Both the position numbers and the translations under genes were made by a program. A stretch of 64,000 nt of DNA, taken from NCBI GenBank assembly GCA_019054805.1, contig JAHQIY010000030.1:496001-560000 (forward strand), read 5' to 3'. The stretch comes from Brachionus manjavacas. Taxonomy: Eukaryota > Rotifera > Eurotatoria > Ploima > Brachionidae. The notes below the pieces were generated by a model. It was given only the letters and a program-made list of their open reading frames with translations, had not been told where the DNA came from and did not search any database. Of this stretch, positions 17,111-64,000 are shown one piece after another (positions within the stretch are counted from its first letter, which is position 1; the number at the start of each line of letters is the position of its first letter).

Positions 17111-17120
17111 ATTTCCCAAT
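17111..17120 (+). repeat. Right target-site duplication of element 1
   Basis: Second copy of ATTTCCCAAT. It continues directly into GGACAACATGATTAACG, a normal satellite monomer. Confidence 0.75.
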
Positions 17121-17962
17121 GGACAACATGATTAACGAGTCTTCCATTTACTTTTTTCTTTCCTTATGAACTAATTGATTAACGAAGCGGGAATTAACCT
17201 ATTTCATTACTTATTGACAACTTGAGCGGCAAAGCGTCCATTTTTTACCTAATTTCCCAATGGACAACATGATTAACGAGTCTTCCATTTACTTTTTCTT
17301 TCCTTATGAACTAATTGATTAACGAAGCGGGAATTAACCTATTTCATTACTTATTGACAACTTGAGCGGCAAAGCGTCCATTTTTTACCTAATTTCCCAA
17401 TGGACAACATGATTAACGAGTCTTCCATTTACTTTTTTCTTTCCTTATGAACTAATTGATTAACGAAGCGGGAATTAACCTATTTCATTACTTATTGACA
17501 ACTTGAGCGGCAAAGCGTCCATTTTTTACCTAATTTCCCAATGGACAACATGATTAACGAGTCTTCCATTTACTTTTTCTTTCCTTATGAACTAATTGAT
17601 TAACGAAGCGGGAATTAACCTATTTCATTACTTATTGACAACTTGAGCGGCAAAGCGTCCATTTTTTACCTAATTTCCCAATGGACAACATGATTAACGA
17701 GTCTTCAATTTACTTTTTTCTTTCCTTATGAACTAATTGATTAACGAAGCGGGAATTAACATATTTCATTACTTATTGACAACTTGAGCGGCAAAGCGTC
17801 CATTTTTTACCTAATTTCCCAATGGACAACATGATTAACGAGTCTTCCATTTACTTTTTCTTTCCTTATGAACTAATTGATTAACGAAGCGGGAATTAAC
17901 CTATTTCATTACTTATTGACAACTTGAGCGGCAAAGCGTCCATTTTTACCTAATTTACCAAT
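17121..17962 (+). repeat. Highly uniform 141-bp tandem run (about 6 copies)
   Basis: GGACAACATG starts fall at 17,121, 17,262, 17,402, 17,543, 17,683, 17,824 and 17,963, with spacing 139-141 bp. The copies differ mainly by one or two T in a T-run and a few substitutions. The unit carries the variants GAGTCTTCC, GGGAATTAACC, TTTCATTAC and TTGAGCGGC. The same variant unit sits left of element 1 (about 15,905-16,020), so the element landed inside or beside this sub-array. No gene. Confidence 0.88.
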
Positions 17963-40600: not shown

Positions 40601-41510
40601 ATTTTGACAATTTGAGTGACAAAACGTCCATTTTTTACCTTATTTCCTAATGGACAACATGATTAACGAGACCTTCATTTACTTTTTTCTTTCCTTATGA
40701 TTTAATTGATTAACAAGGCGGTAATTTACTTATTTCTTTACATTTTGACAATTTGAGTGACAAAACGTCCATTTTTTACCTTATTTTCTAATAGACAATA
40801 TCATTGACGAGACCTCCATTTACTTTTTTCTTTCCTCATGAACAGCTTGATTTACGAGGCATCATTTACTTATTTTTTAACTTATTGACAACTTGAGTGA
40901 CAAAGCGTCCATTTTTTACCTTATTTCCTAATGGACAACATGATATACGAGACCTTCATTTAGTTTTTTCTTTCCTTATGAACTAATTGATTAAGGAAGC
41001 GGGAATTTACCTATTTCCTTACTGATTGACAACTTGAGTGATAAAGCTTCCATTTTTTACCTAATTTTCTAATGGACAACATGATTAACGAGACCTCCAT
41101 TTACTTTTTTCTTTCCTCATGAACTAATTGATTTATGAGGCGGGAATTTACTAATTTCTGTATTTATAAACAATTTGAGTGACAAAACGTCCATTTTTTA
41201 CCTTATTTTCTAATAGACAATATCATTGACGAGACCTCCATTTACTTTTTTCTTTCCTCATGAACAGCTTGATTTACGAGGCATCATTTACTTATTTTTT
41301 AACTTATTGACAACTTGAGTGACAAAGCGTCCATTTTTTACCTTATTTCCTAATGGACAACATGATATACGAGACCTTCATTTAGTTTTTTCTTTCCTCA
41401 TGAACTAATTGATTAATGAGGCGGGAATTTACTAATTTCTTTACTTATAAACAATTTGAGTGACAAAACGTCCATTTTTTACCTTATTTTCTAATAGACA
41501 ATATCATTAC
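34601..41510. repeat. Satellite domain 5: GATATACGAG higher-order block
   Basis: No gene. Diagnostic monomers are GATATACGAGACCTTCATT, GACAATATCATTGACGAG and CAGCTTGATTTACGAGGC. GATATACGAG occurs at 34,800, 35,458, 36,303, 36,724, 37,425, 38,128, 38,409, 39,535, 40,097, 40,942 and 41,364. After the first interval every spacing is close to a multiple of 141 bp. The block stops abruptly at ~41,505-41,512, where GACAATATCATT is joined out of phase to ACCTACTTCTTTCCC. Confidence 0.88.
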
Positions 41511-43848
41511 CTACTTCTTTCCCTATGAAATAATTGATTTACGAGGCGGGAATTTACTTATTTCCTTGGGTATTGACAACTTGAGTGACAAAGCGTTTAT
41601 TTTTTTCCTTTTTTTCTAACAGACAACATGATTTACGAGGCTTAAATTTACTAATCACTTTTCTTTTGGACAATTTGATTAACGATGCGTCAATTTAATA
41701 ATTTCGTTACTTGTAATGGACAAAGTGACAAAGCGTCCATTTTTTACCTTATTTTCTAATAGACAACATGATTAACGAGAGCTACATTTACTTTTTTCTT
41801 ACCTTATGTACTAATTGATTAACGAAGCGGGAATTTACCTATTTCCTTACTTATTGACAACTTGAGTGATAAAGCGTCAATTTTTTACCACATTTTCTAA
41901 TGGACAAAATGATTTACGAGGCTTTAATTGACTAATAACTTTTCCTTTGGACAATTTGATTAACGATGCGCCAATTTACTCTCTTCTTTACTTAAGGATA
42001 ATTTAAGTGACAAAGCGTCTATTTTTTACCTTATTTTCTAATGGACGACATGATTGACAAGTCCTCTATTTACTTTTTTCTTTCCTCTTGAACAAATTGA
42101 TTAATGAGGCGGGAATTTACTTATTCCTAATTATCCTTAAGAATTTACCTATTTCCTTACTGATTGACAACTTGAGTGACAAAGCTTCCATTTTTTACCT
42201 AATTTTCTAATGGACAACATGATTTACGAGACCTCCAATTACTTTTTTCTTTCCTTATTATTTAATTGATTAACAAGGCGGTAATTTACTTATTTCTTTA
42301 CATTTTGACAACTTGAGTGACAAAACGTCCATTTTTTACCTAATTTTCTAATAGACAATATCATTGACGAGACCTCCATTTATTTTTTTCTTTCCTCATG
42401 AACTAATTAATTAATGAGGCGGGAATTTACTAATTTCTTTACTTATAAACAATTTGAGTGACAAAGCGTCCATTTTTTAACACATTTTCTAATGGAAAAC
42501 TTTATTAACGATGCGTAAATTAACTGATTACTTTTCTTTTGGACAATTTGATTAACGATGCGTCATTTCACTTATTTCTTTACTTATGGACAATTTGAGT
42601 GACAAAGCAAACATTTTTTACCTCATTTTCTAATAGACAACATGATTGACGAGACCTCCATTTACTTTGTTCTTTCCTTGTGAACTAAATGATTGACTAG
42701 TCCTCCAATTACTTTTTTATTTACTAATGAACAACTTGAGTGACAAAGCGTCTTTTTGCCATTTTTTCTAATAAACAACTTGATTTACGAGGGGGTTATT
42801 TACTTATTTCTTTACAATTAAACAACTTGAGTGACAAAGCGTCCATTTTTTACCTTATTTTCTAATTGACAACATGATTGACGAGACCTCCAATTACTTT
42901 ATTCTTTCATTATTAACTAATTGATTAACGAGTCGTCAATTAACTTATTTCTTAACATTTTGATTACTTGAGTGACAAAGCGTCCTTTTTTTACCTTATT
43001 TTCTAATGGACAATTTGGTTAACGATTCGTCAATTTAATAATTTCGTTACTTGTAATTGACAAAGTGACAAAGCGTCCATTTTTTACCTTATTTTCTAAT
43101 AGACAACATGATTGACGAGACCTCCATTTACTTTGTTCTTTCCTTGTGAACTAAATGATTGACTAGTCCTCCAATTACTTTTTTATTTACTAATGAACAA
43201 CTTGAGTGACAAAGCGTCTTTTTTTTGCCATTTTTTCTAATTAACAACTTGATTTACGAGGGGGTTATTTACTTATTTCTTTACAATTAAACAACTTTGG
43301 TGACAAAGCGTCCATTTTTTACCTTATTTCTTAAAAGACAACATGATAGACGAGACCTCCATTTACTTTATTCTTTCCTTATTAACTAATTGATTAACGA
43401 GTCGTCAATTAACTTATTTCTTAACATGAGGCGGAAATTTACTTATTTCCTAACTTATTGACAAATTGAGTGACAAGGCGTCAATTTTTTTCCTTATTTT
43501 CTAATGGACGACGTGATTGACGAGTCCTCATATTATCTACTTCTTTCCCTATGAAATAATTTATTTACGAGGCGGGAATTTACTAATTACTTTACTTATA
43601 AACAATTTTAGTGACAAAGCGTCCATTTTTTACCTTATTTCCTAATGGACAACAAGATTAACGAGACCTTCATTTACTTTTTTCTTCCCTCATGATTAAA
43701 TTGATAAAAAAGGCGGTAATTTACTTATTTTTTAACTAATGAACAACTTAGGTGACAAAGCGTCCTTTTTTTACCTTATTTTCTAATGGGCAATTTGGTT
43801 AATGAGGCGGAAATTTACTTATTTCCTAACTTATTGACAAATTGAGTG

Positions 43849-44917
43849 ACAAGGCGTCAATTTTTTTCCTTATTTTTTAATGGACGACGTGATTGACGAG
43901 TCCTCAAATTACCTACTTCTTTCCCTATGATTTAGTTGATTTACGAGGCGGGAATTTACTTATTTCCTTCTTTATTGACAACTTGAGTGACAAAGCGTTT
44001 ATTTTTTACCTTATTTTCTAATGTACAAAATGATTGACGAGACTTCTATTTACTTTGTTCTTTCCTTGTGAACTAAATGATTAATGAGGCGGTAATTTAC
44101 TTATTTCTTTACTTATTGACAAATTGAGTGACAAAGCGCCCATTTTTTACCACATTTTCTAATGGACAACATGATTTAGGAGGCTTTAATTGACTAATAA
44201 CTTTTCTTATGGACAATTTGAATAACGATGCGTCAATTTACTTATTTCTTCACTTAAGGACAATTCTAGTGAAAAAGCGTCTATTTTTTACCTTATTTTG
44301 CAAATGGACGACATGATTGACGAGTCCTCCAATTACTTTTTTCTTTCCTTATTAACTAATTGATTAACGAGGCGTCAATTTACTTATTTCCTTACTTATT
44401 GGCATTTTGAGTACAAAGCGTCTATTTTTTACCTTATTTTCTAATGTACGACGTGATTGACGAGTCCTCAAATTACCTTCTTCTTTCCCTATGATTTAAT
44501 TGATTTACGAGGCTGGAATTTACTTATTTCCTTCTTTTTTGACAACTTGAGTGACAAAGCGTTTATTTTTTACCTTATTTTCTAATGTACAAAATGATTG
44601 ACGAGACCTCCATTTACTTTTTTCTTTCCTAATGAATTAATTGATTTACGAAGCGTCAATTTACTTATTTCTTTAATTTTTGAAAACTTGAGTGACAAAG
44701 CAAACATTTTTTACCTCATTTTCTAATAGAAAACATGATTGACGAGACCTCCATTTAAATTGTTCTTTCCTTGTGAACTAAATGATTAATGAGGCGGGAA
44801 TTTACTTATTTTTTAACTAATTGACAACTTGAGTTACAAAGCGTCCATTTTTTACCTTATTTTCTAATAGACAATATCATTGACGAGACCTCCATTTACT
44901 TTTTTCTTTCCTCATGA
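43849..44917 (+). repeat. ~1.07-kb segmental duplication, copy 1
   Basis: Matches 46,101-47,169 at a constant offset of 2252 bp, about 48 monomers or 16 trimers. The offset was checked at ACAAGGCGTCAA near the start and at TGACGAGACC near the end. Confidence 0.8.
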
Positions 44918-46100
44918 ACTAATTGATTAATGAGGCGGGAATTTACTAATTTCTTTACTTATAAACAAATTGAGTGACAAAGCGTCCATTTTTTATCACA
45001 TTTTCTAATGAACAACATGATTTAGGAGGCTTTAATTGACTGATAACTTTTCTTATGGACAATTTGAATAACGATGCGTCAATTTACTTATTTCTTCACT
45101 TAAGGACAATTTAAGTGACAAAGCGTCTATTTTTTACCTTATTTTCAAATGGACAACATGATTAACGAGACCTTCATTTACTTTTTTCTTTCCTTATGAT
45201 TTAATTGATTAACAAGGCGGTATTTCACTTATTTCTTTACATTTTGACAACTTGAGTGACAAAACGTCCATTTTCTACCTTATTTTCTAAAAGACAATAT
45301 CATTGACGAGACCTCCATTTACTTTTTCTTTCCTCATGAACAGCTTGATTTACGAGGCATCATTTACTTATTTTTTAACTTATTGACAACTTGAGTGACA
45401 AAGAGTCCATTTTTTACCTTATTTCCTAATGGACAACATGATATACGAGACCTTCATTTAGTTTTTTCTTTCCTTATGAACTAATTGATTAAGGAAGCGG
45501 GAATTTACCTATTTCCTTACTGATTGACAACTTGAGTGATAAAGCTTCCATTTTTTACCTAATTTTCTAATGGACAACATGATTAACGAGACCTCCATTT
45601 ACTTTTTTCTTTCCACATGAACTAATTGATAAATGAGGCGGGAATTTACTAATTTCTTTACTTATAAACAATTTGAGTGACAAAGCGTCCATTTTTTACC
45701 TTATTTCCTAATGGACAACATGATTAACGAGACCTTCATTTACTTTTTCTTTCCTTATGATTTAATTGATTAACAAGGCGGTAATTTACTTATTTCTTTA
45801 CATTTTGACAATTTGAGTGACAAAACGTCCATTTTTTACCTTATTTTCTAATAGACAATATCATTGACGAGACCTCCATTTACTTTTTCTTTCCTCATGA
45901 ACTAATTGATTAATGAGGCGGGAATTTACTAATTTCTGTACTAATGGATAATTTAAGTGACAAAGCGTCTTTTTTTTACTTTATTTTCTAATGGACTACA
46001 TGATTGACGAGTCCTCTTTTTACTCTTTTCTTTCTTTATGATTTAATTGATTAACAAGGCGGTATTTCACTTATTTCTTTACATTTTGACAACTTGAGTG

Positions 46101-47169
46101 ACAAGGCGTCAATTTTTTTCCTTATTTTTTAATGGACGACGTGATTGACGAGTCCTCAAATTACCTACTTCTTTCCCTATGATTTAGTTGATTTACGAGG
46201 CGGGAATTTACTTATTTCCTTCTTTATTGACAACTTGAGTGACAAAGCGTTTATTTTTTACCTTATTTTCTAATGTACAAAATGATTGACGAGACTTCTA
46301 TTTACTTTGTTCTTTCCTTGTGAACTAAATGATTAATGAGGCGGTAATTTACTTATTTCTTTACTTATTGACAAATTGAGTGACAAAGCGCCCATTTTTT
46401 ACCACATTTTCTAATGGACAACATGATTTAGGAGGCTTTAATTGACTTATAACTTTTCTTATGGACAATTTGAATAACGATGCATCAATTTACTTATTTC
46501 TTCACTTAAGGACAATTCAAGTGAAAAAGCGTCTATTTTTTACCTTATTTTGCAAATGGACGACATGATTGACGAGTCCTCCAATTACTTTTTTCTTTCC
46601 TTATTAACTAATTGATTAACGAGGCGTCAATTTACTTATTTCCTTACTTATTGGCATTTTGAGTACAAAGCGTCTATTTTTTACCTTATTTTCTAATGTA
46701 CGACGTGATTGACGAGTCCTCAAATTACCTTCTTCTTTCCCTATGATTTAATTGATTTACGAGGCTGGAATTTACTTATTTCCTTCTTTTTTGACAACTT
46801 GAGTGACAAAGCGTTTATTTTTTACCTTATTTTCTAATGTACAAAATGATTGACGAGACCTCCATTTACTTTTTTCTTTCCTAATGAATTAATTGATTTA
46901 CGAAGCGTCAATTTACTTATTTCTTTAATTTTTGAAAACTTGAGTGACAAAGCAAACATTTTTTACCTCATTTTCTAATAGAAAACATGATTGACGAGAC
47001 CTCCATTTACTTTGTTCTTTCCTTGTGAACTAAATGATTAATGAGGCGGGAATTTACTTATTTTTTAACTAATTGACAACTTGAGTTACAAAGCGTCCAT
47101 TTTTTACCTTATTTTCTAATAGACAATATCATTGACGAGACCTCCATTTACTTTTTTCTTTCCTCATGA
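46101..47169 (+). repeat. ~1.07-kb segmental duplication, copy 2
   Basis: Second copy of 43,849-44,917. It diverges just after CCTCATGAA, where this copy reads ATAATTG and the other CTAATTG. Confidence 0.8.
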
Positions 47170-48150
47170 AATAATTGATTTACAAGGCGGTAATTTACTT
47201 ATTTCTTTACTTATTGACAAATTGAGTGATAAAGCGTACATTTTTTATCACATTTTCTAATGAACAACATGATTTAGGAGGCTTTAATTGACTGATAACT
47301 TTTCTTATGGACAATTTGAATAACGATGCGTCAATTTACTTATTTCTTCACTTAAGGACAATTTAAGTGACAAAGCGTCTATTTTTTACCTTATTTTCAA
47401 ATGGACGACATGATTGACGAGTCCTCCAATTACTTTTTTCTTTCCTTATTAACTAATTGATTAACGAGGCGTCAATTTACTTATTTCCTTACTTGTTGGC
47501 ATTTTGAGTGACAAAGCCTCCATTTTTTAACACATTTTCTAATGGACAACTTTATTAACGATGCGTAAATTAACTGATTACTTTTCTTTTGGACAATTTG
47601 ATTAACGATCAGTCATTTTACTTATTTCTTTACTTATGGACAATTTGAGTGACAAAGCGTCTATTTTTTACCTTATTTTCTAATGTACGACGTGATTGAC
47701 GAGTCCTCCAATTACCTACTTCTTTCCCTATGATTTAATTGATTTACGAGGCGGGAATTTACTTATTTCCTTCTTTTTTGACAACTTGAGCGACAAAGCG
47801 TTTATTTTTTACCTTATTTTCTAATGTAAAAAATGATTGACGAGACCTCCATTTACTTTTTTCTTTCCTAATGAATTAATTGATTTACGAAGCGTCAATT
47901 TACTTATTTCTTTAATTTTTGAAAACTTGAGTGACAAAGCAAACATTTTTTACCTCATTTTCTAATAGACAACATGATTGACGAGACCTCCATTTAAATT
48001 GTTTTTTCCTTGTGAACTAAATGATTAATGAGGCGGGAATTTACTTATTTTTTAACTAATTGACAACTTGAGTGACAAAGCGTCCATTTTTTACCTTATT
48101 TTCTAATAGACAATATCATTGACGAGACCTCCATTTACTTTTTTCTTTCC
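47164..48150 (+). repeat. 987-bp higher-order repeat, copy 1
   Basis: Directly followed by a second copy at an exact offset of 987 bp = 21 x 47 (7 trimers). The offset was checked at TATTTCTTCA (47,341/48,328), CAATTTGAGT (47,641/48,628) and AAACATTTTT (47,941/48,928). Shorter or extended copies begin near 49,280, 50,945 and 52,070. Marker spacings are 987, 1128, 1663 and 1128 bp, of which 1128 = 24 x 47. Confidence 0.85.
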
Positions 48151-49137
48151 TCATGAAATAATTGATTTACAAGGCGGTAATTTACTTATTTCTTTACTTA
48201 TTGACAAATTGAGTGATAAAGCGTACATTTTTTATCACATTTTCTAATGAACAACATGATTTAGGAGGCTTTAATTGACTGATAACTTTTCTTATGGACA
48301 ATTTGAATAACGATGCGTCAATTTACTTATTTCTTCACTTAAGGACAATTTAAGTGACAAAGCGTCTATTTTTTACCTTATTTTCAAATGGACGACATGA
48401 TTGACGAGTCCTCCAATTACTTTTTTCTTTCCTTATTAACTAATTGATTAACGAGGCGTCAATTTACTTATTTCCTTACTTGTTGGCATTTTGAGTAACA
48501 AAGCCTCCATTTTTTAACACATTTTCTAATGGACAACTTTATTAACGATGCGTAAATTAACTGATTACTTTTCTTTTGGACAATTTGATTAACGATCAGT
48601 CATTTTACTTATTTCTTTACTTATGGGCAATTTGAGTGACAAAGCGTCTATTTTCTACCTTATTTTCTAATGTACGACGTGATTGACGAGTCCTCCAATT
48701 ACCTACTTCTTTCCCTATGATTTAATTGATTTACGAGGCGGGAATTTATTTATTTCCTTCTTTTTTGACAACTTGAGTGACAAAGCATTTATTTTTTACC
48801 TTATTTTCTAATGTAAAAAATGATTGACGAGACCTCCATTTACTTTTTTCTTTCCTAATGAATTAATTGATTTACGAAGCGTCAATTTACTTATTTCTTT
48901 AATTTTTGAAAACTTGAGTGACAAAGCAAACATTTTTTACCTCATTTTCTAATAGACAACATGATTGACGAGACCTCCATTTAAATTGTTTTTTCCTTGT
49001 GAACTAAATGATTAATGAGGCGGGAATTTACTTATTTTTTAACTAATTGACAACTTGAGTGACAAAGCGTCCATTTTTTACCTTATTTTCTAATAGACAA
49101 TATCATTGACGAGACCTCCATTTACTTTTTTCTTTCC
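48151..49137 (+). repeat. 987-bp higher-order repeat, copy 2
   Basis: Near-identical tandem copy of 47,164-48,150, with a few substitutions such as TATGGACAATT to TATGGGCAATT. Confidence 0.85.
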
Positions 49138-52100
49138 TCATGAACTAATTGATTAATGAGGCGGGAATTTACTAATTTCTTTACTTATAAACAAATTGAG
49201 TGACAAAGCGTCCATTTTTTACCTTATTTCCTAATGGACAACATGATTAACGAGACCTTCATTTACTTTTTTCTTTCCTAATGAACTAATTGATTTACAA
49301 GGCGGTAATTTACTTATTTCTTTACTTATTGACAAATTGAGTGATAAAGCGTACATTTTTTATCACATTTTCTAATGAACAACATGATTTAGGAGGCTTT
49401 AATTGACTGATAACTTTTCTTATGGACAATTTGAATAACGATGCGTCAATTTACTTATTTCTTCACTTAAGGACAATTTAAGTGACAAGGCGTCTATTTT
49501 TTACCTTATTTTCAAATGGACGACATGATTGACGAGTCCTCCAATTACTTTTTTCTTTCCTTATTAACTAATTGATTAACGAGGCGTCAATTTACTTATT
49601 TCCTTACTTGTTGGCATTTTGAGTGACAAAGCCTCCATTTTTTAACACATTTTCTAATGGACAACTTTATTAACGATGCGTAAATTAACTGATTACTTTT
49701 CTTTTGGACAATTTGATTAACGATGCGTCATTTTACTTATTTCTTTACTTATGGACAATTTATAATTAATAAAGACAACATGATTGACGAGACCTCCATT
49801 TACTTTGTTCTTTCCTTGTGAACTAAATGATTGACTAGTCCTCCAATTACTTTTTTATTTACTAATGAACAACTTGAGTGACAAAGCGTCTTTTTTTGCC
49901 ATTTTTTCTAATAAACAACTTGATTTACGAGGGGGTTATTTACTTATTTCTTTACAATTAAACAACTTTGGTGACAAAGCGTCCATTTTTTACCTTATTT
50001 CTTAAAAGACAACTTGATAGACGAGACCTCCATTTACTTTATTCTTTCCTTATTAACTAATTGATTAACGAGTCGTCAATTAACTTATTTCTTAACATTT
50101 TGATTACTTGAGTGACAAAGCGTCCTTTTTTTACCTTATTTTCTAGTGGACAATTCGGTTAATGAGGCGGAAATTTACTTATTTCCTAACTTATTGACAA
50201 ATTGAGTGACAAGGCGTCAATTTTTTTCCTTATTTTCTAATGGACGACGTGATTGACGAGTCCTCATATTACCTACTTCTTTCCCTATGAAATAATTTAT
50301 TTACGAGGCGGGAATTTACTAATTACTTTACTTATAAACAATTTTAGTGACAAAGCGTCCATTTTTTACCTTATTTCCTAATGAACAACAAGATTAACGA
50401 GACCTTCATTTACTTTTTTCTTCCCTTATGATAAAATTGATTAAAAAGGCGGTAATTTACTTATTTTTTAACTAATGAACAACTTGAGTGACAAAGCGTC
50501 CTTTTTTTACCTTATTTTCTAATGGACAATTTGGTTAATGAGGCGGAAATTTACTTATTTCCTAACTTATTGACAAATTGAGTGACAAGGCGTCAATTTT
50601 TTTCCTTATTTTTTAATATACGACGTGATTGACGAGTCCTCAAATTACCTACTTCTTTCCCTATGATTTAGTTGATTTACGAGGCGGGAATTTACTTATT
50701 TCCTTCTTTATTGACAACTTGAGTGACAAAGCGTTTATTTTTTACCTTATTTTCTAATGTACAAAATGATTGACGAGACTTCTATTTACTTTGTTCTTTC
50801 CTTGTGAACTAAATGATTAATGAGGCGGGAATTTACTAATTTCTTTACTTATAAACAAATTGAGTGACAAAGCGTCCATTTTTTACCTTATTTCCTAATG
50901 GACAACATGATTAACGAGACCTTCATTTACTTTTTTCTTTCCTAATGAACTAATTGATTTACAAGGCGGTAATTTACTTATTTCTTTACTTATTGACAAA
51001 TTGAGTGATAAAGCGTACATTTTTTATCACATTTTCTAATGGACAACATGATTTAGGAGGCTTTAATTGACTGATAACTTTTCTTATGGACAATTTGAAT
51101 AACGATGCGTCAATTTACTTATTTCTTCACTTATGGACAATTTAAGTGACAAAGTGTCTATTTTTTACCTTATTTTCAAATGGACGACATGATTGACGAG
51201 TCCTCCAATTACTTTTTTCTTTCCTTATTAACTAATTGATTAACGAGGCGTCAATTTACTTATTTCCTTACTTATTGGCATTTTGAGTACAAAGCGTCCA
51301 TTTTTTAAACACATTTTCTAATGGACAACTTTATTAACGATGCGTAAATTAACTGATTACTTTTCTTTTGGACAATTTGATTAACGATCAGTCATTTTAC
51401 TTATTTCTTTACTTATGGGCAATTTGAGTGACAAAGCGTCTATTTTTTACCTTATTTTCTAATGTACGACGTGATTGACGAGTCCTCCAATTACCTACTT
51501 CTTTCCCTATGATTTAATTGATTTACGAGGCGGGAATTTACTTAGTTCCTTCTTTTTTGACAACTTGAGTGACAAAGCGTTTATTTTTTACCTTATTTTC
51601 TAATGTAAAAAATGATTGACGAGACCTCCATTTACTTTTTTCTTTCCTAATGAATTAATTGATTTACGAAGCGTCAATTTACTTATTTCTTTAATTTTTG
51701 AAAACTTGAGTGACAAAGCAAAATTTTTTACCTCATTTTCTAATAGACAACATGATTGACGAGACCTCCATTTAAATTGTTCTTTCCTTGTGAACTAAAT
51801 GATTAATGAGGCGGGAATTTACTTATTTTTTAACTAATTGACAACTTGAGTGACAAAGCGTCCATTTTTTACCTTATTTTCTAATAGACAATATCATTGA
51901 CGAGACCTCCATTTACTTTTTTCTTTCCTCATGAACTAATTGATTAATGAGGCGGGAATTTACTAATTTCTTTACTTATAAACAAATTGAGTGACAAAGC
52001 GTCCATTTTTTACCTTATTTCCTAATGGACAACATGATTAACGAGACCTTCATTTACTTTTTTCTTTCCTAATGAAATAATTGATTTACAAGGCGGTAAT

Positions 52101-53100
52101 TTACTTATTTCTTTACTTATTGACAAATTGAGTGATAAAGCGTACATTTTTTATCACATTTTCTAATGAACAACATGATTTAGGAGGCTTTAATTGACTG
52201 ATAACTTTTCTTATGGACAATTTGAATAACGATGCGTCAATTTACTTATTTCTTCACTTAAGGACAATTTAAGTGACAAAGCGTCTATTTTTTACCTTAT
52301 TTTCAAATGGACGACATGATTGACGAGTCCTCCAATTACTTTTTTCTTTCCTTATTAACTAATTGATTAACGAGGCGTCAATTTACTTATTTCCTTACTT
52401 GTTGGCATTTTGAGTGACAAAGCCTCCATTTTTTAACACATTTTCTAATGGACAACTTTATTAACGATCCGTAAATTAACTGATTACTTTTCTTTTGGAC
52501 AATTTGATTAACGATGCGTCATTTTACTTATTTCTTTACTTATGGACAATTTATAATTAATAAAGACAACATGATTGACGAGACCTCCATTTACTTTGTT
52601 CTTTCCTTGTGAACTAAATGATTGACTAGTCCTCCAATTACTTTTTTATTTACTAATGAACAACTTGAGTGACAAAGCGTCTTTTTTTTGCCATTTTTTC
52701 TAATAAACAACTTGATTTACGAGGGGGTTATTTACTTATTTCTTTACAATTAAACAACTTTGGTGACAAAGCGTCCATTTTTTACCTTATTTCTTAAAAG
52801 ACAACTTGATAGACGAGACCTCCATTTACTTTATTCTTTCCTTTTTAACTAATTGATTAACGAGTCGTCAATTAACTTATTTCTTAACATTTTAATAACT
52901 TGAGTGACAATGCGAACATTTTTTACCTTATTTTCTAATAAACAACATGATTGACGAGACCTCCATTTACTTTTTTATTTACTAATGAACAACTTGAGTG
53001 ACAAAGCGTCCTTTTTTTACCTTATTTTCTAATGGACAATTTGGTTAATGAGGCGGTAATTTTCTTATTTCCTAACTTATTGACAAATTGAGTGACAAGG

Positions 53101-56100
53101 CGTCAATTTTTTTCCTCATTTTCTAATGGACGACGTGATTGACGAGTCCTCATATTACCTACTTCTTTCCCTTTGAAATAATTTATTTACGAGGCGGGAA
53201 TTTACTAATTACTTTACTTATAAACAATTTAAGTGACAAAGCGTCCATTTTTTACCACATTTTCTATTGGACAACTTTATTAACGATGCGTAAATTAACT
53301 GATTACTTTTCTTTTGGACAATTTGATTAACGATGCGTCATTTTACTTATTTCTTTACTTATGGACAATTTGAGTGACAAAGCGTCTATTTTTTACCTTA
53401 TTTTCTAATGGACACCTTTATTTACGATGCGTAAATTAACTGATTACTTTTCTTTTGGACAATTTGATTAACGATGCGTCATTTTACATATTTCTTTACT
53501 TATGGACAATTTGAGTGACAAAGCGTCCATTTTTTACCTTATTTTCTAATGAACGACGTGATTGACGAGTCCTCAAATTACCTTCTACTTTCCCTATGAA
53601 ATAATTGATTTACGAGGCGAGAATTTACTTATTTCCTTACTTATTGACAACTTAAGTGACAAAGCGTTTATTTATTACCTTTTTTTCTAACAGACAACAT
53701 GATTTACGAAGCTTTAATTTACTAATCACTTATCTTATGGACAATTTGATTAACGATGCGTCAATTTACTAATTTCTTTACTTATTTACAACTTGAGTGA
53801 CAAAGCGTCCATTCTTACCACATTTTCTAATGGACAACTTTATTAACGATTCGTAAATTAACTGATTACTTTTCTTTTGGACAATTTGATTAACGATGCG
53901 TCATTTTACTTATTTCTTTACTTATGGACAATTTGAGTGACAAAGCCTCCATTTTTTAACACATTTTCTAATGGACAACTTTATTAACGATGCGTAAATT
54001 AACTGATTACTTTTCTTTTGGACAATTTGATTAACGATGCGTCATTTTACATATTTCCTTACTTATTGACTACTTGAGTGACAAAGCGTCCATTTTTTAC
54101 CTTATTTTCTAATAGACAATATCATTGACGAGACCTCCATTTACTTTTTTCTTTCCTCATGAACTAATTGATTAACAAGGTGGTAATTTACTTATTTCTT
54201 TACTTATTGACAAATTGAGTGAAAAAGCGTCTATTTTTTACCTTATTTTCAAATGGACGACATGATTGGCGAGTCCTCCAATTATTTTTTTCTTTCCTTA
54301 TTAACTAATTGATTAACGAGGCGTCAATTTACTTATTTCCTTACTTATTGACAACTTAAGTGACAAAGCGTTTATTTTTTACCTTTTTTTCTAAAAGACA
54401 ACATGATTTACGAAGCTTAAATTTACTAATCACTTATCTTATGGACAATTTGATTAACGATGCGTCAATTTACTAATTTCTTTACTTATTTACAACTTGA
54501 GTGACAAAGCGTCCATTCTTACCACATTTTCTAATGGACAACTTTATTAACGATTCGTAAATTAACTGATTACTTTTCTTTTGGACAATTTGATTAACGA
54601 TGCGTCATTTTACTTATTTCTTTACTTATGGACAATTTGAGTGACAAAGCGTCTATTTTTTACCTTATTTTCTAATGGACACCTTTATTAACGATGCGTA
54701 AATTAACTGATTACTTTTCTTTTGGACAATTTGATTAACGATGCGTCATTTTACATATTTCTTTACTTATGGACAATTTGAGTGACAAAGCGTCTATTTT
54801 TTACCTTATTTTCTAATAGACGACGTGATTGACGAGTCCTCAAATTACCTTCTTCTTTCCCTATGATTTAATTAATTAACGAGGCGTGAATTTACTTATT
54901 TCCTTACTTATTGACAACTTGAGTGACAAAGCGTCCATTTTTTACCTTATTTTCTAAAAGACAACATGATTAACGAGACCTTCATTTACTTTTTTCTTTC
55001 CTTATGAACTAATTGATTAACAAGGCGGTAATTTACTTATTTCTTTACTTATGGACAATTTGAGTGACAAAGCGTCTATTTTTTACCTTATTTTCTAATG
55101 GACACCTTTATTTACGATGCGTAAATTAACTGATTACTTTTCTTTTGGACAATTTGATTAACGATGCGTCATTTTACATATTTCTTTACTTATGGACAAT
55201 TTGAGTGACAAAGCGTCTATTTTTTACCTTATTTTCTAATGGACACCTTTATTTACGATGCGTAAATTAACTGATTACTTTTCTTTTGGACAATTTGATT
55301 AACGATGCGTCATTTTACATATTTCTTTACTTATGGACAATTTGAGTGACAAAGCGTCTATTTTTTACCTTATTTTCTAATAGACGACGTGATTGACGAG
55401 TCCTCAAATTACCTACTTCTTTCCCTATGATTTAATTAATTAACGAGGCGTGAATTTACTTATTTCCTTACTTATTGACAACTTGAGTGACAAAGCGTCC
55501 ATTTTTTACCTTATTTTCTAATAGACAATATCATTGACCTCCATCAACTTTTTTTTCTTTCCTCATGAACTAATTGATTAATGAGGCGGGAATTTACTAA
55601 TTTCTTTACTTATAAACAAATTGAGTGACAAAGCAAACATTTTTTACCTCATTTTCTAATAGACAACATGATTGACGAGACCTGCATTTACTTTGTTCTT
55701 TCCTTGTGAACTAAATGATTGACTAGTCCTCCAATTACTTTTTTATTTACTAATGAACAACTTGAGTGACAAAGCGTCTTTTTTTTGCCATTTTTTCTAA
55801 TAAACAACTTGATTTACGAGGGGGTTATTTTCTTATTTCTTTACAATTAAACAACTTTGGTGACAAAGCGTCTATTTTTTACCTTATTTCATAAAAGACA
55901 ACATGATAGACGAGACCTCCATTTACTTTATTCTTTCCTTATTAACTAATTGATAAACGAGTCGTCAATTAACTTATTTCTTCACTTATGGACAATTTAA
56001 GTGACAAAGCGTCCATTTTTTACCTTATTTTCTAATCGACAACATGTTTTACGATGCTTTAATTATCTAATAACTTTTCTTATGGACAATTTGATTAACG

Positions 56101-56340
56101 ATGCGTCAATTCACTTATTTCTTCACTTATGGACAATTTAAGTGACAAAGCGTCTATTTTTTACTTTTATTTCTAATGGAGGACAAAATTGATGAGTCCT
56201 CCGATTACTTTTTTCTTTCCTTATTAATTAATTGATTAACGAGGCGTCAATTTACTTATTTCCTTACTTATGGACAATTTAAGTGACAAAGCGTCTATTT
56301 TTTACTTTATTTTCTAAAAGACAACATGATTTACGAGGCT
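53101..56340. repeat. Satellite domain 7: ATTAACGATGCGTAAATTAAC block
   Basis: No gene. Dominated by the monomers GGACAACTTTATTAACGATG, ATTAACTGATTACTTTTC and GGACAATTTGATTAACGATG. Their order repeats several times, for example around 53,260, 53,410, 53,835, 53,970, 54,530, 54,675, 55,100 and 55,240. An out-of-phase join lies at ~55,535. It ends where element 2 is inserted. Confidence 0.88.
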
Positions 56341-56349
56341 TTAATTAAC
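56341..56349 (+). repeat. Left target-site duplication of element 2
   Basis: TTAATTAAC at the end of the satellite recurs exactly at 57,477-57,485, where the satellite resumes. Nine bases is the usual MULE target duplication length. Confidence 0.85.
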
Positions 56350-56364
56350 GGCCGCATGAGAAAA

Positions 56365-56532
56365 TGTCAAATTTTTAATAATAATGTCAAATTTTAATTA
56401 TGTCAAATTTGTAATTGTCAAATACCAAACATCAAATTAATTAAATTAATGTCAAATTTTTCTTAAACGTGTCAAATAATCTATATATCTGTCAAATTTG
56501 ATGAGTAAGTTTCAAATAAATTCGTCAAATTT
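56365..56532 (+). repeat. Left arm of element 2: array of GTCAAAT motifs
   Basis: Eight GTCAAAT copies, mostly in the context TGTCAAATTT, at about 56,366, 56,386, 56,402, 56,417, 56,451, 56,471, 56,491 and 56,524, plus weaker variants such as TTCAAAT. Spacing is irregular at ~15-35 bp. This looks like a multimeric transposase-binding region. Confidence 0.8.
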
Positions 56533-56761
56533 TAATAACTCTTATTATCATTTATCTAATTTTTATTCCAGGTTATTAACTCTTACAAACTTTATTCATA
56601 TTTTTATTTTTATTTTTTGATTTTATTTTACTTAACTTTTTTAATTTTTAATTTTACTTAACTTAATTTTTTATTTTTATTCTGAAGGAGCTTTAGCTCG
56701 GTCCTGTTAACAAATAAATAAATATATAAAATAAATAACAATTTTGATAATTTTAACAACA

Positions 56762-57172
56762 ACAACACAAGAAGACGACGTTAAAAAAAAAAGAGGCAGA
56801 CCACGTAAAAGACCTTTAGAACAACTGGAACCAAGCAACGCATAAATAAACGAACTATTACCAAATGTTTTCGACAGAGATCGCTGTAAAAAATTTCTTC
56901 AATTAGTAAATAAATGCGAATGGGACAATTTCTAGCAATTTTTTGAAACTTTTCAACAACTATGCATCGTACAATTAAACCAAGATAATTGGAAGCTTAG
57001 CACATGTACATGTCCATCATGGTTCAAACATTACATGTGCAAGCACATAATCGGGATTGCTTATCGTGAACGTCTATTTGACGAGTTTCCTAAAGAATCT
57101 TGGTGTCTGACTTTGGGTCAAGTCGCAAGTGCTGGGAGACCCAAAAAAATGGCTAAAGCATTGGCAAAGTAA
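56762..57172 (+). pseudogene. MULE transposase C-terminal remnant with SWIM zinc finger
   Basis: One reading frame carries recognisable protein but has an in-frame TAA at 56,843 and TAG at 56,933, and no start codon. In order it shows an AT-hook (KKKRGRPRKRP, ~56,785-56,815), a polar linker, and a SWIM zinc finger with the spacing CxCx8CxH: Cys codons at 57,005, 57,011 and 57,038 and His at 57,044. It then has a DEFPKE segment and a second basic AGRPKK motif, ending in a TAA at 57,170. The terminal CAAAGTAAGT could be a splice donor, so the ORF end may not be the protein end. SWIM domains bind DNA or mediate protein contacts and follow the DDE core in MULE transposases. The core is absent. 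Both stops fall beside Gln-rich sequence, but a reassigned code is not favoured. Confidence 0.75.
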
Positions 57173-57250
57173 GTTTAAACTTTTACATATAAATAAAAAA
57201 TAAGAACGTAAATTTTTTTTTTTTTTATGAATATTTTTCTCTTTTTTTTG

Positions 57251-57461
57251 GTGAATATTTGACTTTTTTTTGGACGAAAATTTGACTGTTATCAAAAAAA
57301 TTTGATACTTTCTAATTTGACATTTCTTTAATAAATTTGACAAAAAAACATAATATTTGACGTTCTTATTTTTAATTTGACATATTGAAATTTGACAAAT
57401 GATCGAATAAAATTTGACAAAATAATTTTTTTGAATTTGACATTCCTTTGAAAAATTTGAC
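57251..57461 (-). repeat. Right arm of element 2: array of ATTTGAC motifs
   Basis: About ten copies of ATTTGAC(A), the reverse complement of the left-arm motif, between ~57,256 and 57,461. The outermost ~45 bp, read inward, shares the block GTCAAATTTTT followed later by ATGTCAAATT with the left end. Confidence 0.8.
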
Positions 57462-57476
57462 TAAAATAATATACCC

Positions 57477-57485
57477 TTAATTAAC
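57477..57485 (+). repeat. Right target-site duplication of element 2
   Basis: Second copy of TTAATTAAC. The satellite resumes directly with TACTCACTTTTCTTATGGAC. Confidence 0.85.
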
Positions 57486-59335
57486 TACTCACTTTTCTTA
57501 TGGACAATTTGATTAACGATGCGTCTAATAAATAACATTTATTTTCTAATAAATAACATGATTGACGAGACCTCCATTTACTTTTTTATTTACTAATGAA
57601 CAATTTGAGTGACAAAGCGTCCTTTTTTTACCTTATTTTCTAATAGACAACATGTTTTACGATGCTTTAATTGACTAATAACTTTTCTTATGGACAATTT
57701 GATTAACGATGCGTCAATTTACTTATTTCTTCACTTATGGACAATTTAAGTGACAAAGCGTCCATTTTTTACCTTATCTTCTAATGGACAACATGATTAA
57801 CGAGACCTCCATTTACTTTTTTCTTTCCTCATGAACTAATTGAATAATGAGGCGGATTTACTAATTTCTTTACTTTTAAACAACTTGAGTAACAAAGCGT
57901 CCATTTTTTTCCTTATTTTCTAAAAGAAAACATGATTTACGAGGCTTTAATTAACTAATTACTTTTCTTTTGGACAATTTGATTAACGATGGGTCAATTT
58001 ACATATTTCTTTACTTATTGACAACTTGAGTGAGAAAGCGTCCATTTTTTACCACATTTTCTAGTGCACAACTTTTTTAACGGGGCTTTAATTAATTAAT
58101 TTCTTTACTTATTGACAATTTGAGTGACAAAGCGTCCATTTTTTACCCTTATTTTCTAATGAATAGTTTGATTTACGAGGCGTCAATTTACTTATTTCTT
58201 TACTAATGAACAATTTAAGTGACAAAGCGTCCATTTTTTACCTTATTTTCTAATGAATAGCTTGATTTACGAGGCGTCAATTTACTTATTTCTTTACTAA
58301 TGAACAATTTAAGTGACAAAGCGTCCATTTTTTACCTTATTTTCTAATGAATAGCTTGATTTACGAGGCGTCAATTAACTTATTTCTTAACATTTTGATA
58401 ACTTGAGTGACAATGCGAACATTTTTTACCTTATTTTCTAATAAATAACATGATTGACGAGACCTCCATTTACTTTTTTATTTACTAATGAACAACTTGA
58501 GTGACAAAGCGTCCTTTTTTTACCTCATATTCTTATGTTCAACATGATTGACGAGACCTCCATTTACTTCTTTCTTTCCTAATGAATGATTTGATTAACG
58601 AAGCGGGAATTTAATTATTTCCTTACTTATTGAGAACTTGAGTGACAAGGCGTCCATTTTTTAACTATTTTTCTTATGGACAACATGATTTACGAGGCTT
58701 TAATAAACTAATTACTTTTCTTATGGACAATTTGATTAACGATGCGTCAATTTACTAATTTCTTTACTTATTGACAACTTGAGTGACAAAGCGTCAATTT
58801 TTTACCTAATTTTCTAATAGACAACATGATTAACGAGACCTCCATTTACTTTTTTCTTTCCTTATGAACGAATTGCTTAAAGAAGCGGGAATTTACCTAT
58901 TTCTTTACTTATTGAGAACTTGAGTGACAAAGCGTCCAATTTTTAACTATTTTTCTAATGGACAACTTAATTTACGAGACAACTTTATTTACGAATTAAC
59001 TGATTACTTTTTTAATGGACAATTTGATTTACGAGGCGTAAATTTACTCATTTCTTTCCTTAGGGACATTTTGAGTAAACCAGCGTCTATTTTTTAGCTT
59101 ATTTTCTAATGGACCACATGAGACCTCCAATTGTTTTTCCTTTACTAATGAACAACTTCAGTGACAAAGCGTCCCTTTTTTCCTTATTTTTTAAAAGCAA
59201 CTTGTTTTACGAGGCGACAATTTACTTATTATTTTACTAAGGGACAACGTGAGTGACAAAGCGTCAATTTTTTACCTTATTTCTTTATGGAAAATTTTAT
59301 TTACGAGGCGGTAATTTACTTATTTCTTTACTTAA

Positions 59336-59797
59336 GGACAACTTGAGTGACAAAGCGTCAATTTTTGACTTATTTTATAATTGACAACATGATTGACGAG
59401 ACCTCCATTTACTTTTTTCTTTCCTTGTGTACAGCTTGATTTACGATGCGGGAATTTACTTATTTCTTTACATATTGATAACTTGAGTGACAAAGCGTCA
59501 ATTTTTTACCTTATTTTTTTATTGGACAATTTGATTGACGAGACCTCCATTTACTTTATTCTTTCCTTATGGAAAACTTGATTAACGAGGAGGTAATTAA
59601 CTTATTTCTTTACTTAGCGACAACTTGAGTGACAAAGCGTCAATTTTTTACCTTATTTCTAAATGGAAAATTTTATTTACGAGGCGGTAATTTACTTATT
59701 TCTTTACTTAAGGACAACTTGAGTGACAAAGCGTCTATTTTTGACTTACTTTATAATTGACAACATGATCGACGAGACCTCCATTTACTTTTTTCTT
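59336..59797 (+). repeat. 462-bp duplication next to the junction, copy 1
   Basis: Nearly identical to 59,852-60,313 at an offset of 516 bp (11 monomers less one base). Very few differences are seen, one being A/T near 59,672/60,188. Because the surrounding satellite is diverged, this duplication is recent. Confidence 0.85.
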
Positions 59798-59851
59798 GCC
59801 TAATGAACAACTTGATTAACGAGGCGGTAATTTACTTTTTTCTTTACTTAG

Positions 59852-60313
59852 GGACAACTTGAGTGACAAAGCGTCAATTTTTGACTTATTTTATAATTGA
59901 CAACATGATTGACGAGACCTCCATTTACTTTTTTCTTTCCTTGTGTACAGCTTGATTTACGATGCGGGAATTTACTTATTTCTTTACATATTGATAACTT
60001 GAGTGACAAAGCGTCAATTTTTTACCTTATTTTTTTATTGGACAATTTGATTGACGAGACCTCCATTTACTTTATTCTTTCCTTATGGAAAACTTGATTA
60101 ACGAGGAGGTAATTAACTTATTTCTTTACTTAGCGACAACTTGAGTGACAAAGCGTCAATTTTTTACCTTATTTCTTAATGGAAAATTTTATTTACGAGG
60201 CGGTAATTTACTTATTTCTTTACTTAAGGACAACTTGAGTGACAAAGCGTCTATTTTTGACTTACTTTATAATTGACAACATGATCGACGAGACCTCCAT
60301 TTACTTTTTTCTT
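59852..60313 (+). repeat. 462-bp duplication next to the junction, copy 2
   Basis: Second copy of 59,336-59,797. It ends only ~25 bp before the satellite-plasmid junction. Confidence 0.85.
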
Positions 60314-60336
60314 TACCTATGTGCAGCTTGATTTAG

Positions 60337-60840
60337 GAGACGTTATCGAAAGAAATTGAGCTTATAAATACCTTTAAATCACTCATTGTAACTGAGAAAG
60401 GTGAATTAAAGTGAGGATTTAAGCCTATTTCCGACTTCAAAGCGTCATCAACATACATATTATCTGAGCTTAAGGAAATTAAGTTCAATTTCATAGGAAT
60501 CCAAACACATACAACGTATAAAGTATCGTCAAATAATCCAGACACACAAAAAATCCGCACTGCAGCCTTTGTTAATATAATTCACTCGTTAGATGCATTA
60601 AATCTTATACTATTAGTTAATCATTGAAACGATTTTAATATATTAACAATTCACGATGCATTATTAGTTAGTTGAAAAGAGAGATTCTCTACAGTAAAAC
60701 AAACTATAGCATCGCATTTCAAAGCAATTCACAACTCACAACCATTATACTCAAACCTTGAAAAGGATCTGTTATCAAGTAGGGCAGGATTCAAGGCTGA
60801 CAAGCACATCAAAGTTACTGGAGAGATAATGTCTCTTTAG
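60337..60840 (+). CDS. rpo: C-terminal fragment of a plasmid single-subunit RNA polymerase (TGA = Trp)
   Basis: Read with TGA as Trp, this frame is open for 167 codons to a TAG at 60,838. With the standard code it is broken by TGA at 60,412, 60,625 and 60,673. It contains FVNIIHSLDALNL and, ~15 residues on, LTIHDALL. These match the C-terminal motifs of T7-like RNA polymerases, including the His-Asp pair whose Asp binds a catalytic metal. About 60 residues follow the HD motif, the normal distance to the end of the enzyme. The family is encoded by linear mitochondrial plasmids and transcribes them. The N-terminal ~80% is missing: coding begins at the satellite junction with no start. It faces the polymerase gene on the other strand, which carries the N-terminal half of the same kind of enzyme. 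Confidence 0.85.
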
Positions 60841-60886: not shown

Positions 60887-63800
60887 CTAGTACGGGTCTT
60901 TAATTAATATGAAATACTTCGCATTTTCGAATGGGAACATCGCGTCCTTGTTAAATAGAGGGAATCACTGTTTAAATACTATTCTATTAGTTGTATTGAA
61001 AAGAGGACGCATTCATTTTGAACCTATATGAGAAACATTCGTTAACAATGGATATACACGACCACGAGAATCAATTATATGAATGTTATGGTAATAACGT
61101 TGATTAACTGTTCCTGCTAGTTTAGAGATTAATGCTATAGTTTCTCTAAATGTTTCGTATTCCATTAATCCTGATTGGATTTCTTCCTTAGTATATCACC
61201 CTATATAACGAGCAAACTCATCTTGACCTAGTTTATTAAACAATCCTCTCAGTATCTCATAATACCCAATATTAAGAACTACTTTAACAGCATTTATCTT
61301 ATTTAATTGATCACATTTATCTTTAGATGATAATACTGGGTCATTTGAGTTACGATCGTAAACGTTAACTACAGGTGTGAATGAAATTTTACTAAGAATA
61401 TGTAGTATATCTGCAACTTTTGTTCAAGATTCGAATTGATCAGTGAATTTAATAGACGCTTGGGTGAAGTAGAATTGTCCAGTCTCCTTATCAAACGCTT
61501 TTGTCCCTGCGGAATAAACAGTTATAATGCCAGCTCCTTTGCAAATCACTAGCCCACGTCATGCTAATAGTAATATTAGCTTAATACCACGCTCGTCATC
61601 CTTACGAATTCCTATAAGCTCAATTAATTGATCTTTTCAAGTATGAATATTAATGAATCCATGCTTAACGATTCTCTTTCATAGAGCTTTAGTAATAATA
61701 TTAGCTAAAGAGATTTTAATTCTATCTTTTAGTTCATCTAGCTGTATCTTATTTTGATGCTCAACTTTAGTTGATTCAATTAGATAATCGAAGTCAATGT
61801 CTTCGAATGCACCATGTTGTAACAATACTTTAGGAATGAACTTAAGTGCTTCTTCTACAATACTTTTCTCAGTTTGTGTTAAGGCATTAAGCGTTGCATT
61901 TAATTGTTCACCAACCATTTCAGCCATTTCTAGAGCCTTTTGTGACTTTTCTAACTCCTCCTTAATATGAATATAAGTGGGTTTGGCATTAATAGTAGTA
62001 ATCTCTGCTTTCATTTGATCAATTGTGGCATTTTCTGTATCGATAATCAGTTTTGGAAGAGTTTTGAAATAAACTGTGAACTTTACTAGGTCTATCTCAT
62101 ATACTTTATCGTATCCGTCTTCGATTTTCGTAATAATTTTGAATAGAGTATCCTTCAGAATCGTAGTATTTGTACCAATTCATTTATAACCATGCACATG
62201 CATAATAGTGAAGTATTTGTTAACGTCTCTATCCTTACCAACTACAATTAAACGCTTAATATTATCAAGGAATTCCCCATTATTTGTGTTGAATTTCATA
62301 TTTGCAATTAGATTACCTCACATTGTCTCGAAGTTATCCATCTCGTCTAAACGAATAGAGAATGTCACACTATTATTATCACTATTAACGTGTTGTGTAA
62401 CACCTTTGGCAACCTCTGTAAGATTTCCTGATCTTAATACTTTGAATTCAGTTAAAGGAATAGAAATAATATTATTTAGTAACTGCTCATCAGTATTAAG
62501 ATTATAGTCGATTGCATTAATTGATTTATTACCGTCTAACACAAAGGGAATTGTCCTTGCAATATTGTTCTCGAATACTCATTGACGTTTTGAATCGATA
62601 ATGTTATATGATTTAGTTAAATTCTCTTTAATTAGAATACCAGATCCCTCTTTAAGTGGAAGATTCATAAATCTAATTTGATTAGTGAAAGTTAACTTCC
62701 CTTTAGTATAGAGAATATCTACTAGTATTGGAAGAGTTAATTCATGACCCTTAGTAGAAACCCCTTTAACCTTGAACTTTAATTCGCCATCTTTGTTCTT
62801 GAAGTAGTACATTTTAGGAGCCATGAAAATACATTCTTCAGATGACTCTTTCAAGGGGTTCCCGGTTCATGTAAATGGTCCGAATGGCTTTCCGAAAGGA
62901 CATTCGGGCATTCATGCGAATACTGAATCAGTATCAGAATAACACAGAATTCCACCACGTTTCTCAACTTCCATGTAGAGATTATATAAGACGATACGAG
63001 CGTGAGCAGTAATAGCGGCAGCTAAAGGCACATTAATAGATTTTGATTCTAATGCTTTATGGCATTTCTTATAGGCGAAACGCAGAGTATCTTTATCAAC
63101 TCTAGCATCTTTATTAGGATTTACGTTGTAATTTACGACTTTTAGATCTCCATCAACTTCTAAAATAGAATTGATTTTAAACAGCTTTTCCATAACAGAA
63201 AGGGTATCAGCATCCATAACAACTTGCGTTGCATTAATAAAATAATTAGAAGCAAATTTACCATATAGAGAATTTAAGAATAACTTTGCAATTGTTCGAG
63301 TAGCTTTATCCCCTTTCCTTTCGGCTTCGTTTTTAATAGCAGTAAAAGCTTCAGAATAAGCTTTAAGTGGAGTACCAGTTTTAAACACATATCCTTGTAC
63401 CATTTCAATTGTATAGCCTTTTTCCATAGCTAATTCCAACTCATGTGATGATCAAGTTCCTGAAAACCTTCCTAAAGGGAAAATTAGTTTGCCGTTGTCA
63501 GCTTTGATCCCAAGGACAGGAATGTTTAGATCCTTAGGCGTCTTGACTTCACACTCAATAAAAGCTATTAAATTATTACCATGAAGACTGCGTAAAAACT
63601 CTATAGCGTTGGCTTCTTTAAGGAAATCAGACACAAAAACAGGATTTCCATACGGCAGAGCCTTTGTCATACATAAAGCATACATTCCAGGTACATCAAA
63701 ATGATTAACTGTTCCGAGGTTGATACCTGAGTTAAACACTTCTACACGACCTCCTATATAAGCCTTACGGATAAACGAAGATGCAGCAGAATTTAAACCT

Positions 63801-64000
63801 ATAGATAATAGTGGTGTTTCACTAATGTTATTGAATTTACGGGTGAAGACATACATAGCCATAGAGGAAATCGTAATACATTCCTTAATCGCAATAGGAA
63901 ATCCCACTGACGCCTCAATCGATGCTCCAAATTTAAGTAATGCGTTAGCAATTACTACACAATCATTAACACAATATGCATTAATATAAGCAGCAGCAGA
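60887..64000 (-). CDS. dpo: Plasmid B-family DNA polymerase fused to the N-terminal half of an RNA polymerase (TGA = Trp; 5' end outside window)
   Basis: One frame of 1037 residues, open to the window edge and ending in TAG at 60,887, if TGA is Trp. There are 13 TGA and no TGG. Residues, counted from the first in the window: Exo III YCVND at 9-13; YxGGR linker at 81-85; motif A FDVPGMYA at 101-108 (Asp102; usual form DxxSLYP); TPR1-like PLGRFSGTWSSHEL before 190; motif B KxxxNSLYG at 239-247; motif C YSDTDS at 354-359; KxY at 393-395 (KMY). This is a protein-primed DNA polymerase of the linear mitochondrial plasmid type; Exo I/II and any terminal protein lie outside. The polymerase should end near residue 490, yet the frame runs on for ~550 residues: a Glu/Lys-rich helical stretch (~663-770), then features of T7-like RNA polymerases, notably DSRGRVYP at 977-984 followed by GSKWMRPLF. 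It stops ~55 residues later, before the RNA polymerase palm. Confidence 0.88.

Follow-up and report, generated by a model that had tools for sequence, protein, structure and literature searches.

Chromosomal setting of the locus

The window analysed here, i.e., the whole 64,000-nucleotide stretch C30:496001-560000, belongs to a contig (C30) of 749,555 bases in a Brachionus manjavacas assembly of 114,169,980 bases and 61 contigs. Most of the window is satellite DNA, and its right end is occupied by polymerase-coding sequence that continues beyond the edge. The following features were recognized (window positions, unless given on C30):

1..60335, no strand: satellite array built of 47/94-bp and larger units, in which two unique islands lie (k-mer and repeat analysis)
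16455..16916, plus: AT-hook-like open frame of 153 aa in a unique island (AT_hook match under the cut-off)
56846..57172, plus: stop-interrupted SWIM zinc-finger remnant in a unique island (PF04434, 2.3e-6 for 56936-57169)
60335..60348, no strand: left junction from satellite to insert (placed by eye)
60337..60840, plus: RNA polymerase C-terminal part with FVNIIHSLDA and TIHDA, ending in TAG (RNA_pol PF00940, phrog_414, translation)
60887..64000 and on to C30:560825, minus: open frame with DNA polymerase B core, linker and RNA polymerase N-terminal half (code 4)
60971..60990, no strand: approximate breakpoint in the RNA polymerase gene, residues ~1004-1010 (codon-position bias, codon score)
61013..61312, minus: RNA polymerase N-terminal half, residues 897-996 (N4-like RNA polymerase phrog_2166)
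61049..61072, minus: DSRGRVYP motif (sequence motif)
61867..62530, minus: approximate linker and possible RNA polymerase start, residues ~490-712 (same-frame coding signal, no family assigned)
62531..64000, minus: polymerase part of a family-B DNA polymerase, to about residue 490 (DNA_pol_B_2, phi29, phrog_1907, alignment)
C30:560616-560630 and 560367-560387, beyond the window: exonuclease motifs DLETL and HNAGKFD (sequence motifs)

The satellite array, with unit sizes of 47, 94, 141 and ~280 bp and its unique islands, exceeds 70 kb; the same satellite also fills the 10 kb to the left of the window, and none of its frequent 12-mers was found reversed within the window. Satellite k-mer cover drops to 0 in the 60501-61000 bin, and satellite restarts to the right at C30:561024 in the same orientation as on the left, a border that was read from word density and sequence, with two stray satellite 10-mers also lying within the polymerase gene. 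A plasmid-derived insert of about 4.7 kb is thus bounded by satellite on each side, and further to the right the contig carries a LINE-type endonuclease (3.6e-7) and a DUF268 protein (2.4e-24). A terminal inverted repeat shared by the two insert ends was looked for and not found, their longest inverted match being of 17 bases (E 7.8), and 60300-64000 likewise gave none, although the ends of the source need not be included. No tRNA or Rfam match was found within the 64-kb window.

The unique islands have features of their own. The island at 16300-17110 holds the 153-aa frame, which closes with two TAA codons and adjoins short repeats, and the island at 56345-57560 combines the SWIM zinc finger with an AT-hook-like remnant, adjoins short TCAAATTT-type repeats and looks like a decayed transposon.

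The assembly as a whole contains Wnt matches at three places, and Wnt genes are not known from outside the animals. Searches of it for arthropod cuticle (Chitin_bind_4), fungal zinc-cluster (Zn_clus) and nematode cuticle (Col_cuticle_N) families gave no match, but the controls of these searches were positive in no genome, so these negatives carry little weight. Host mitochondrial DNA seems to be absent from it, because no cytochrome b match was found in the assembly despite a control that was positive in 8 of 14 genomes; a COX1 match was rejected as mitochondrial after it turned out to be a bacterial CyoB. One contig of this animal assembly (C21, 1,221,242 bases) is bacterial, with a CyoB ubiquinol oxidase that scores 1020.1 bits, marginally under the model cut-off of 1020.35, and in a 6-kb sample open frames of at least 120 residues account for 96% of the sequence. 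The contig may represent the genome of a symbiont, about 1.2 Mb in size.

An open frame with a family-B DNA polymerase

The preliminary description had claimed a single minus-strand frame, and we likewise found 60887-64000 open under code 4 over 1037 codons, with the terminal TAG as its sole TAA or TAG. The other two minus frames contain 68 and 100 such codons, and the chance of an open frame of 1037 codons is about 1e-27 from base composition. The frame overruns the window by ~825 bp and ends at C30:560825, with the onset of coding signal near C30:560780, and from C30:560825 to the breakpoint in the RNA polymerase gene it runs for 1280 codons free of TAA and TAG. NSLYG, YSDTDS, KMY and DSRGRVYP are all present in the window's part of the frame, and the distance from YSDTDS to the start of DSRGRVYP (residue 977) is 623 residues, in agreement with the ~620 reported before.

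Judged by similarity, the DNA polymerase part is a family-B enzyme of the organellar/viral kind, possibly a protein-primed one. DNA_pol_B_2 matched residues 8-270 (Pfam, 1e-55) and also the portion outside the window (6.8e-8), with each score passing the cut-off; phrog_1907 matched up to residue 466 (5.7e-43); and the PDB match was phi29 polymerase, a protein-primed enzyme (1.3e-10, spanning residues 8-255 only). The two exonuclease motifs lie in the stretch beyond the window. The motif A aspartate was found by alignment, and motif A reads DVPGMY here, as compared with the usual family-B form DxxSLYP described in PMC2746187.

Among bacterial sequences, the polymerase of a 13-kb Bacillus velezensis plasmid (NZ_CP025940.1) matched the DNA polymerase part with 30.5% identity (6e-26), outranking the best 20 of 105 phage records, and two IMG/VR contigs matched about as well. 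No RNA polymerase is among the 21 annotated features of this plasmid with its related polymerase.

Genetic code of the insert

All in-frame tryptophan codons of the insert are TGA, with 14 TGA and no TGG in the long frame up to the breakpoint and 3 TGA and no TGG in the inverted piece (17 to 0 for both pieces together). On the same contig, the SWIM island has 0 TGA and 4 TGG. TGA is a stop in the standard nuclear code, and code 4 and code 5 alike read it as tryptophan, so the usage here fits either. Residue 183, encoded by TGA, was aligned to tryptophan in one of three homologues, namely a Bacillus plasmid polymerase. We infer that the source of the insert was a mitochondrion.

A split and inverted RNA polymerase

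The RNA polymerase homology of the minus strand consists of one profile and one motif. The profile, phrog_2166 (N4-like RNA polymerase), matched at 1.1e-4 with the whole frame and at 1.5e-5 with the last 237 residues, and the motif, in the form D.RGR.Y, is expected by composition about 1e-4 times per frame. Two PHROGs without functional annotation, phrog_19095 (1.2e-4) and phrog_13303 (0.0099), also matched this N-terminal part weakly. Searches of Pfam, NCBIfam, PDB (phmmer) and phage records (tblastn) with this part gave no RNA polymerase match, and its hhalign comparisons with three phage RNA polymerases were no better than those of 20 shuffles.

A further part of the enzyme lies on the plus strand, opposite in orientation to the polymerase frame. 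Translated with code 4, 60337-60840 matched RNA_pol PF00940 (8.5e-7, profile positions 264-375 of 448) and phrog_414 (2.5e-9), and all seven phage records that matched this inverted piece at E 0.09-1 are annotated as RNA polymerases. An SsnA match (NCBIfam) to the piece, at 0.0028 and far under the cut-off, and myosin light chain matches of 0.009 or weaker were treated as chance. Of the two Pfam families expected on the minus frame by the preliminary description, DNA_pol_B_2 was therefore recovered there and RNA_pol was not; RNA_pol matched the inverted plus-strand piece.

Both the DxxGRxY region and the C-terminal HD-motif region of a single-subunit (T7-like) RNA polymerase are accordingly present, on opposite strands, and the complete catalytic core (motifs A and B) was not found. 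Since the spacing from DxRGR to HD is 354-404 residues in three phage RNA polymerases and the insert retains ~33 residues after DxRGR and 105 ahead of the HD motif, we estimate a gap of 216-266 residues that would include the catalytic centre.

The codon signal locates the break. On the minus strand, codon-position bias persists to about residue 1000 and then collapses, and the cumulative codon score reaches its maximum at residue 1005, which together place the break near 60970-60990. In the final ~30 codons of the frame the coding signal fades, and for the tail 1010-1037 alone the score was reached by 96 of 1000 shuffles. Because this fading precedes it and the C-terminal part is inverted, the natural gene probably did not terminate with the TAG at 60887. 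Both the inversion of the C-terminal part at 60337-60840 and the loss of coding signal in the last ~30 codons are new relative to the preliminary description. Between the stop of the C-terminal part and the breakpoint lie ~130 bp (60841-60970) with a G run and GGATCC; they have no good match elsewhere in the 64-kb window and may be flank of the source plasmid.

Used as protein queries, the window frame and the inverted piece each matched one place in the assembly at E <= 0.01. An RNA_pol family search of the assembly listed only a nuclear enzyme on another contig (C19) and missed the window's own inverted piece, so its silence elsewhere says little. The nuclear enzyme is of mitochondrial type and is closer to apparently human PDB chains (5e-157) than to an apparently yeast one (6.4e-115), which, like the Wnt matches, points to an animal genome.

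The joint between the two polymerases

Having delimited the two enzymes, we evaluated the sequence between them by codon usage, taking residues 1-450 and 901-1000 as the training set. From residue 451 onward the frame itself outscored the five other frames in 18 of 19 windows and failed to do so only in the final one. Residues 490-640, which lie outside the training set, scored 19.6, whereas none of 1000 shuffles exceeded -29.5. The linker was therefore coding, and the fusion is thus more than an accidental open frame. Homology to DNA polymerases stops near residue 466-490, and the RNA polymerase start predicted from three phage RNA polymerases falls at residue 567-712, so that the joint does not require a truncation of either enzyme. 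A coding linker and no needed trimming together favour a native fusion, and from these features of the sequence the fusion was probably native to the source plasmid. The argument is short of proof, as there are plasmids with the two genes on the same strand and other parts of this copy are rearranged, so that the joint itself may be a rearrangement too.

The replicase-transcriptase fusion that had been proposed for this locus holds insofar as both polymerases share one frame with a coding linker between them; a plasmid with a working fusion is not supported, the locus being a rearranged insert in a satellite array in which the RNA polymerase is truncated and its C-terminal part inverted. Likewise, the earlier concern that the copy might be a recombinant is borne out for the RNA polymerase end, but the joint between DNA polymerase and RNA polymerase is without sign of recombination.

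We searched for relatives with the same arrangement and found no second copy or homologue carrying the fusion. No relative was confirmed when viral contigs were scanned with the window proteins, and one phage RNA polymerase used as a query returned only that phage. We also examined 102 polymerase loci with flanks of up to 6 kb, namely the best 80 of 286 from viral contigs and 22 of 22 from prokaryote genomes, and none had a frame with D.RGR.[YF].

Origin and age of the insert

Taking the observations together, we consider it reasonably probable that the locus goes back to a recent insertion of a mitochondrial-type plasmid into the nuclear genome, now rearranged, and that in the source plasmid the gene was a true DNA polymerase-RNA polymerase fusion. 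The source plasmid would have encoded a single long protein composed of an exonuclease and DNA polymerase B, a coding linker and a T7-like RNA polymerase, and this fused protein might replicate and transcribe the plasmid itself or be cut into two enzymes. A fragment of the plasmid would then have entered the nucleus and been joined into the satellite array, and during or after the transfer the middle of the RNA polymerase would have been lost and its 3' part rejoined in inverted orientation. A donor in the host's own mitochondria and one in a foreign organism would both be compatible with this scenario. Several points count against it, among them the failure to find a second copy of the fusion, the single profile and single motif behind the minus-strand RNA polymerase homology, and the failure to find a terminal inverted repeat joining the insert ends. 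In addition, the exonuclease motif stands at residue 66 of the extended frame with little sequence ahead of it, whereas eukaryotic polymerases of this kind have, according to PMC11071308, an extended N-terminal region, for which scant room is left here.

With respect to age, TAA or TAG would arise from about 3.7% of the single changes that the frame can undergo, and 1.43 stops are expected per 1% of neutral divergence. As no stop is present, the divergence since insertion would be less than about 2% if neutral, and we infer that the insertion is young.

The alternative that deserves most attention concerns the fusion itself, namely that it is accidental in the present copy and that two tandem same-strand genes were joined in frame by a deletion upon rearrangement or insertion. 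The RNA polymerase gene of this copy is already broken and inverted, plasmids with both polymerase genes on one strand are described (pCGr and pCC2; PMC9925561), and no homologue with the fusion was found, all of which agree with such an accident; however, the linker keeps its coding signal in the same frame and neither protein appears trimmed, and a random deletion seldom spares both ends as well as the frame. We thus hold this origin to be rather unlikely, though worth keeping in view. It is improbable that the contig is an assembly chimera, in which a plasmid or mitochondrial read was wrongly joined to satellite: long satellites are difficult to assemble, but the same satellite in the same orientation flanks the insert within a 750-kb contig, no other place was found for the sequence in the assembly, as a free plasmid might give, and the fusion itself would be left unaffected by an error of this kind.

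Two other readings differ in the genome to which they assign the DNA. If the whole contig came from an organelle or a plasmid, with the satellite belonging to some huge mitochondrial element, the TGA codons in place of TGG and the undecayed state of the polymerase frame would follow; yet the contig also holds the SWIM zinc finger with TGG, the LINE-type endonuclease and the DUF268 protein. Its length of 750 kb, and the 114-Mb size and Wnt genes of the assembly, likewise make this reading very improbable. For a domesticated nuclear gene in host use, the 1280 codons intact under code 4 would be suitable, but 14 of them are TGA, i.e., stops in the standard nuclear code, and the RNA polymerase is without its catalytic middle, so that we give this reading hardly any credence.

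Relation to known elements

NUMTs are nuclear inserts of mitochondrial DNA, that is, organelle-coded and rearranged sequence in nuclear DNA, and the present locus resembles them in that a sequence in an organellar code is bounded on both sides by nuclear-type DNA. It differs in its donor, which resembles a plasmid more than a mitochondrial chromosome and may have belonged to an organism other than the host.

The closest likeness in gene content is to the invertron-type linear mitochondrial plasmids of fungi and Marophrys, which likewise combine an organellar-type DNA polymerase B with a phage-type RNA polymerase. TGA is stated to be tryptophan for the Marophrys plasmid (PMC6425028), and the mould code is given for fungal mitochondrial plasmids (PMC9925561). 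As noted in the preliminary description, linear mitochondrial plasmids normally have separate genes for the two polymerases, and this is how the fungal (PMC9925561), Marophrys (PMC6425028) and Physarum (PMC10048350) plasmids are described. Unlike in the invertrons, both polymerases are here in one frame, in a broken copy on a chromosome contig and with no terminal inverted repeat detected. The view of the locus as a resident linear plasmid is contradicted by a rearranged insert of ~4.7 kb in the satellite array of a 750-kb contig; the sequence in the assembly is not a free linear molecule, and a free form could exist outside the assembly. The plasmids pCGr and pCC2, of non-invertron order, come nearer in that their polymerase genes on the same strand are one step from a fusion, but these genes, which we compare by description, are described as separate (PMC9925561), and pMR1 is in that account only termed non-invertron.

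Plasmid-like DNA polymerase B has a precedent in an animal, as the mitochondrial DNA of clade V placozoans carries a fungal-like polB (PMC1781491, PMC7813641), which indicates that plasmid-like polymerases reach animal mitochondria. The nuclear or mitochondrial location of some of the copies is left open by one of these two papers (PMC1781491/PMC7813641). The placozoan gene is, unlike the present frame, a 491-residue ORF, and the term "RNA polymerase" is absent from the main text of PMC1781491. Fusions of a polymerase of related family with another replication enzyme are described in polinton-like viruses (pPolB-helicase; PMC12721341), where the partner is instead a helicase and "RNA polymerase" is absent from the main text. 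In a literature search by title and abstract start, mainly of papers outside subscription journals, no DNA polymerase-RNA polymerase fusion was found; one published for the Oxytricha mitochondrial plasmid may have been missed.

With a single copy to go by, and a broken one, the case amounts to a lead and not a demonstration. The broadest statement that we would make from it is that a mitochondrial-type plasmid in or near an animal had its replicase and transcriptase as one protein of ~1,700 residues, and that a piece of it, possibly crossing between species, moved to an animal nuclear chromosome no longer ago than about 2% of neutral divergence; we regard the prospects of this statement as evenly balanced. 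If such a plasmid did reach an animal nucleus, the range of these elements would be wider and a dated fossil of one would be available.
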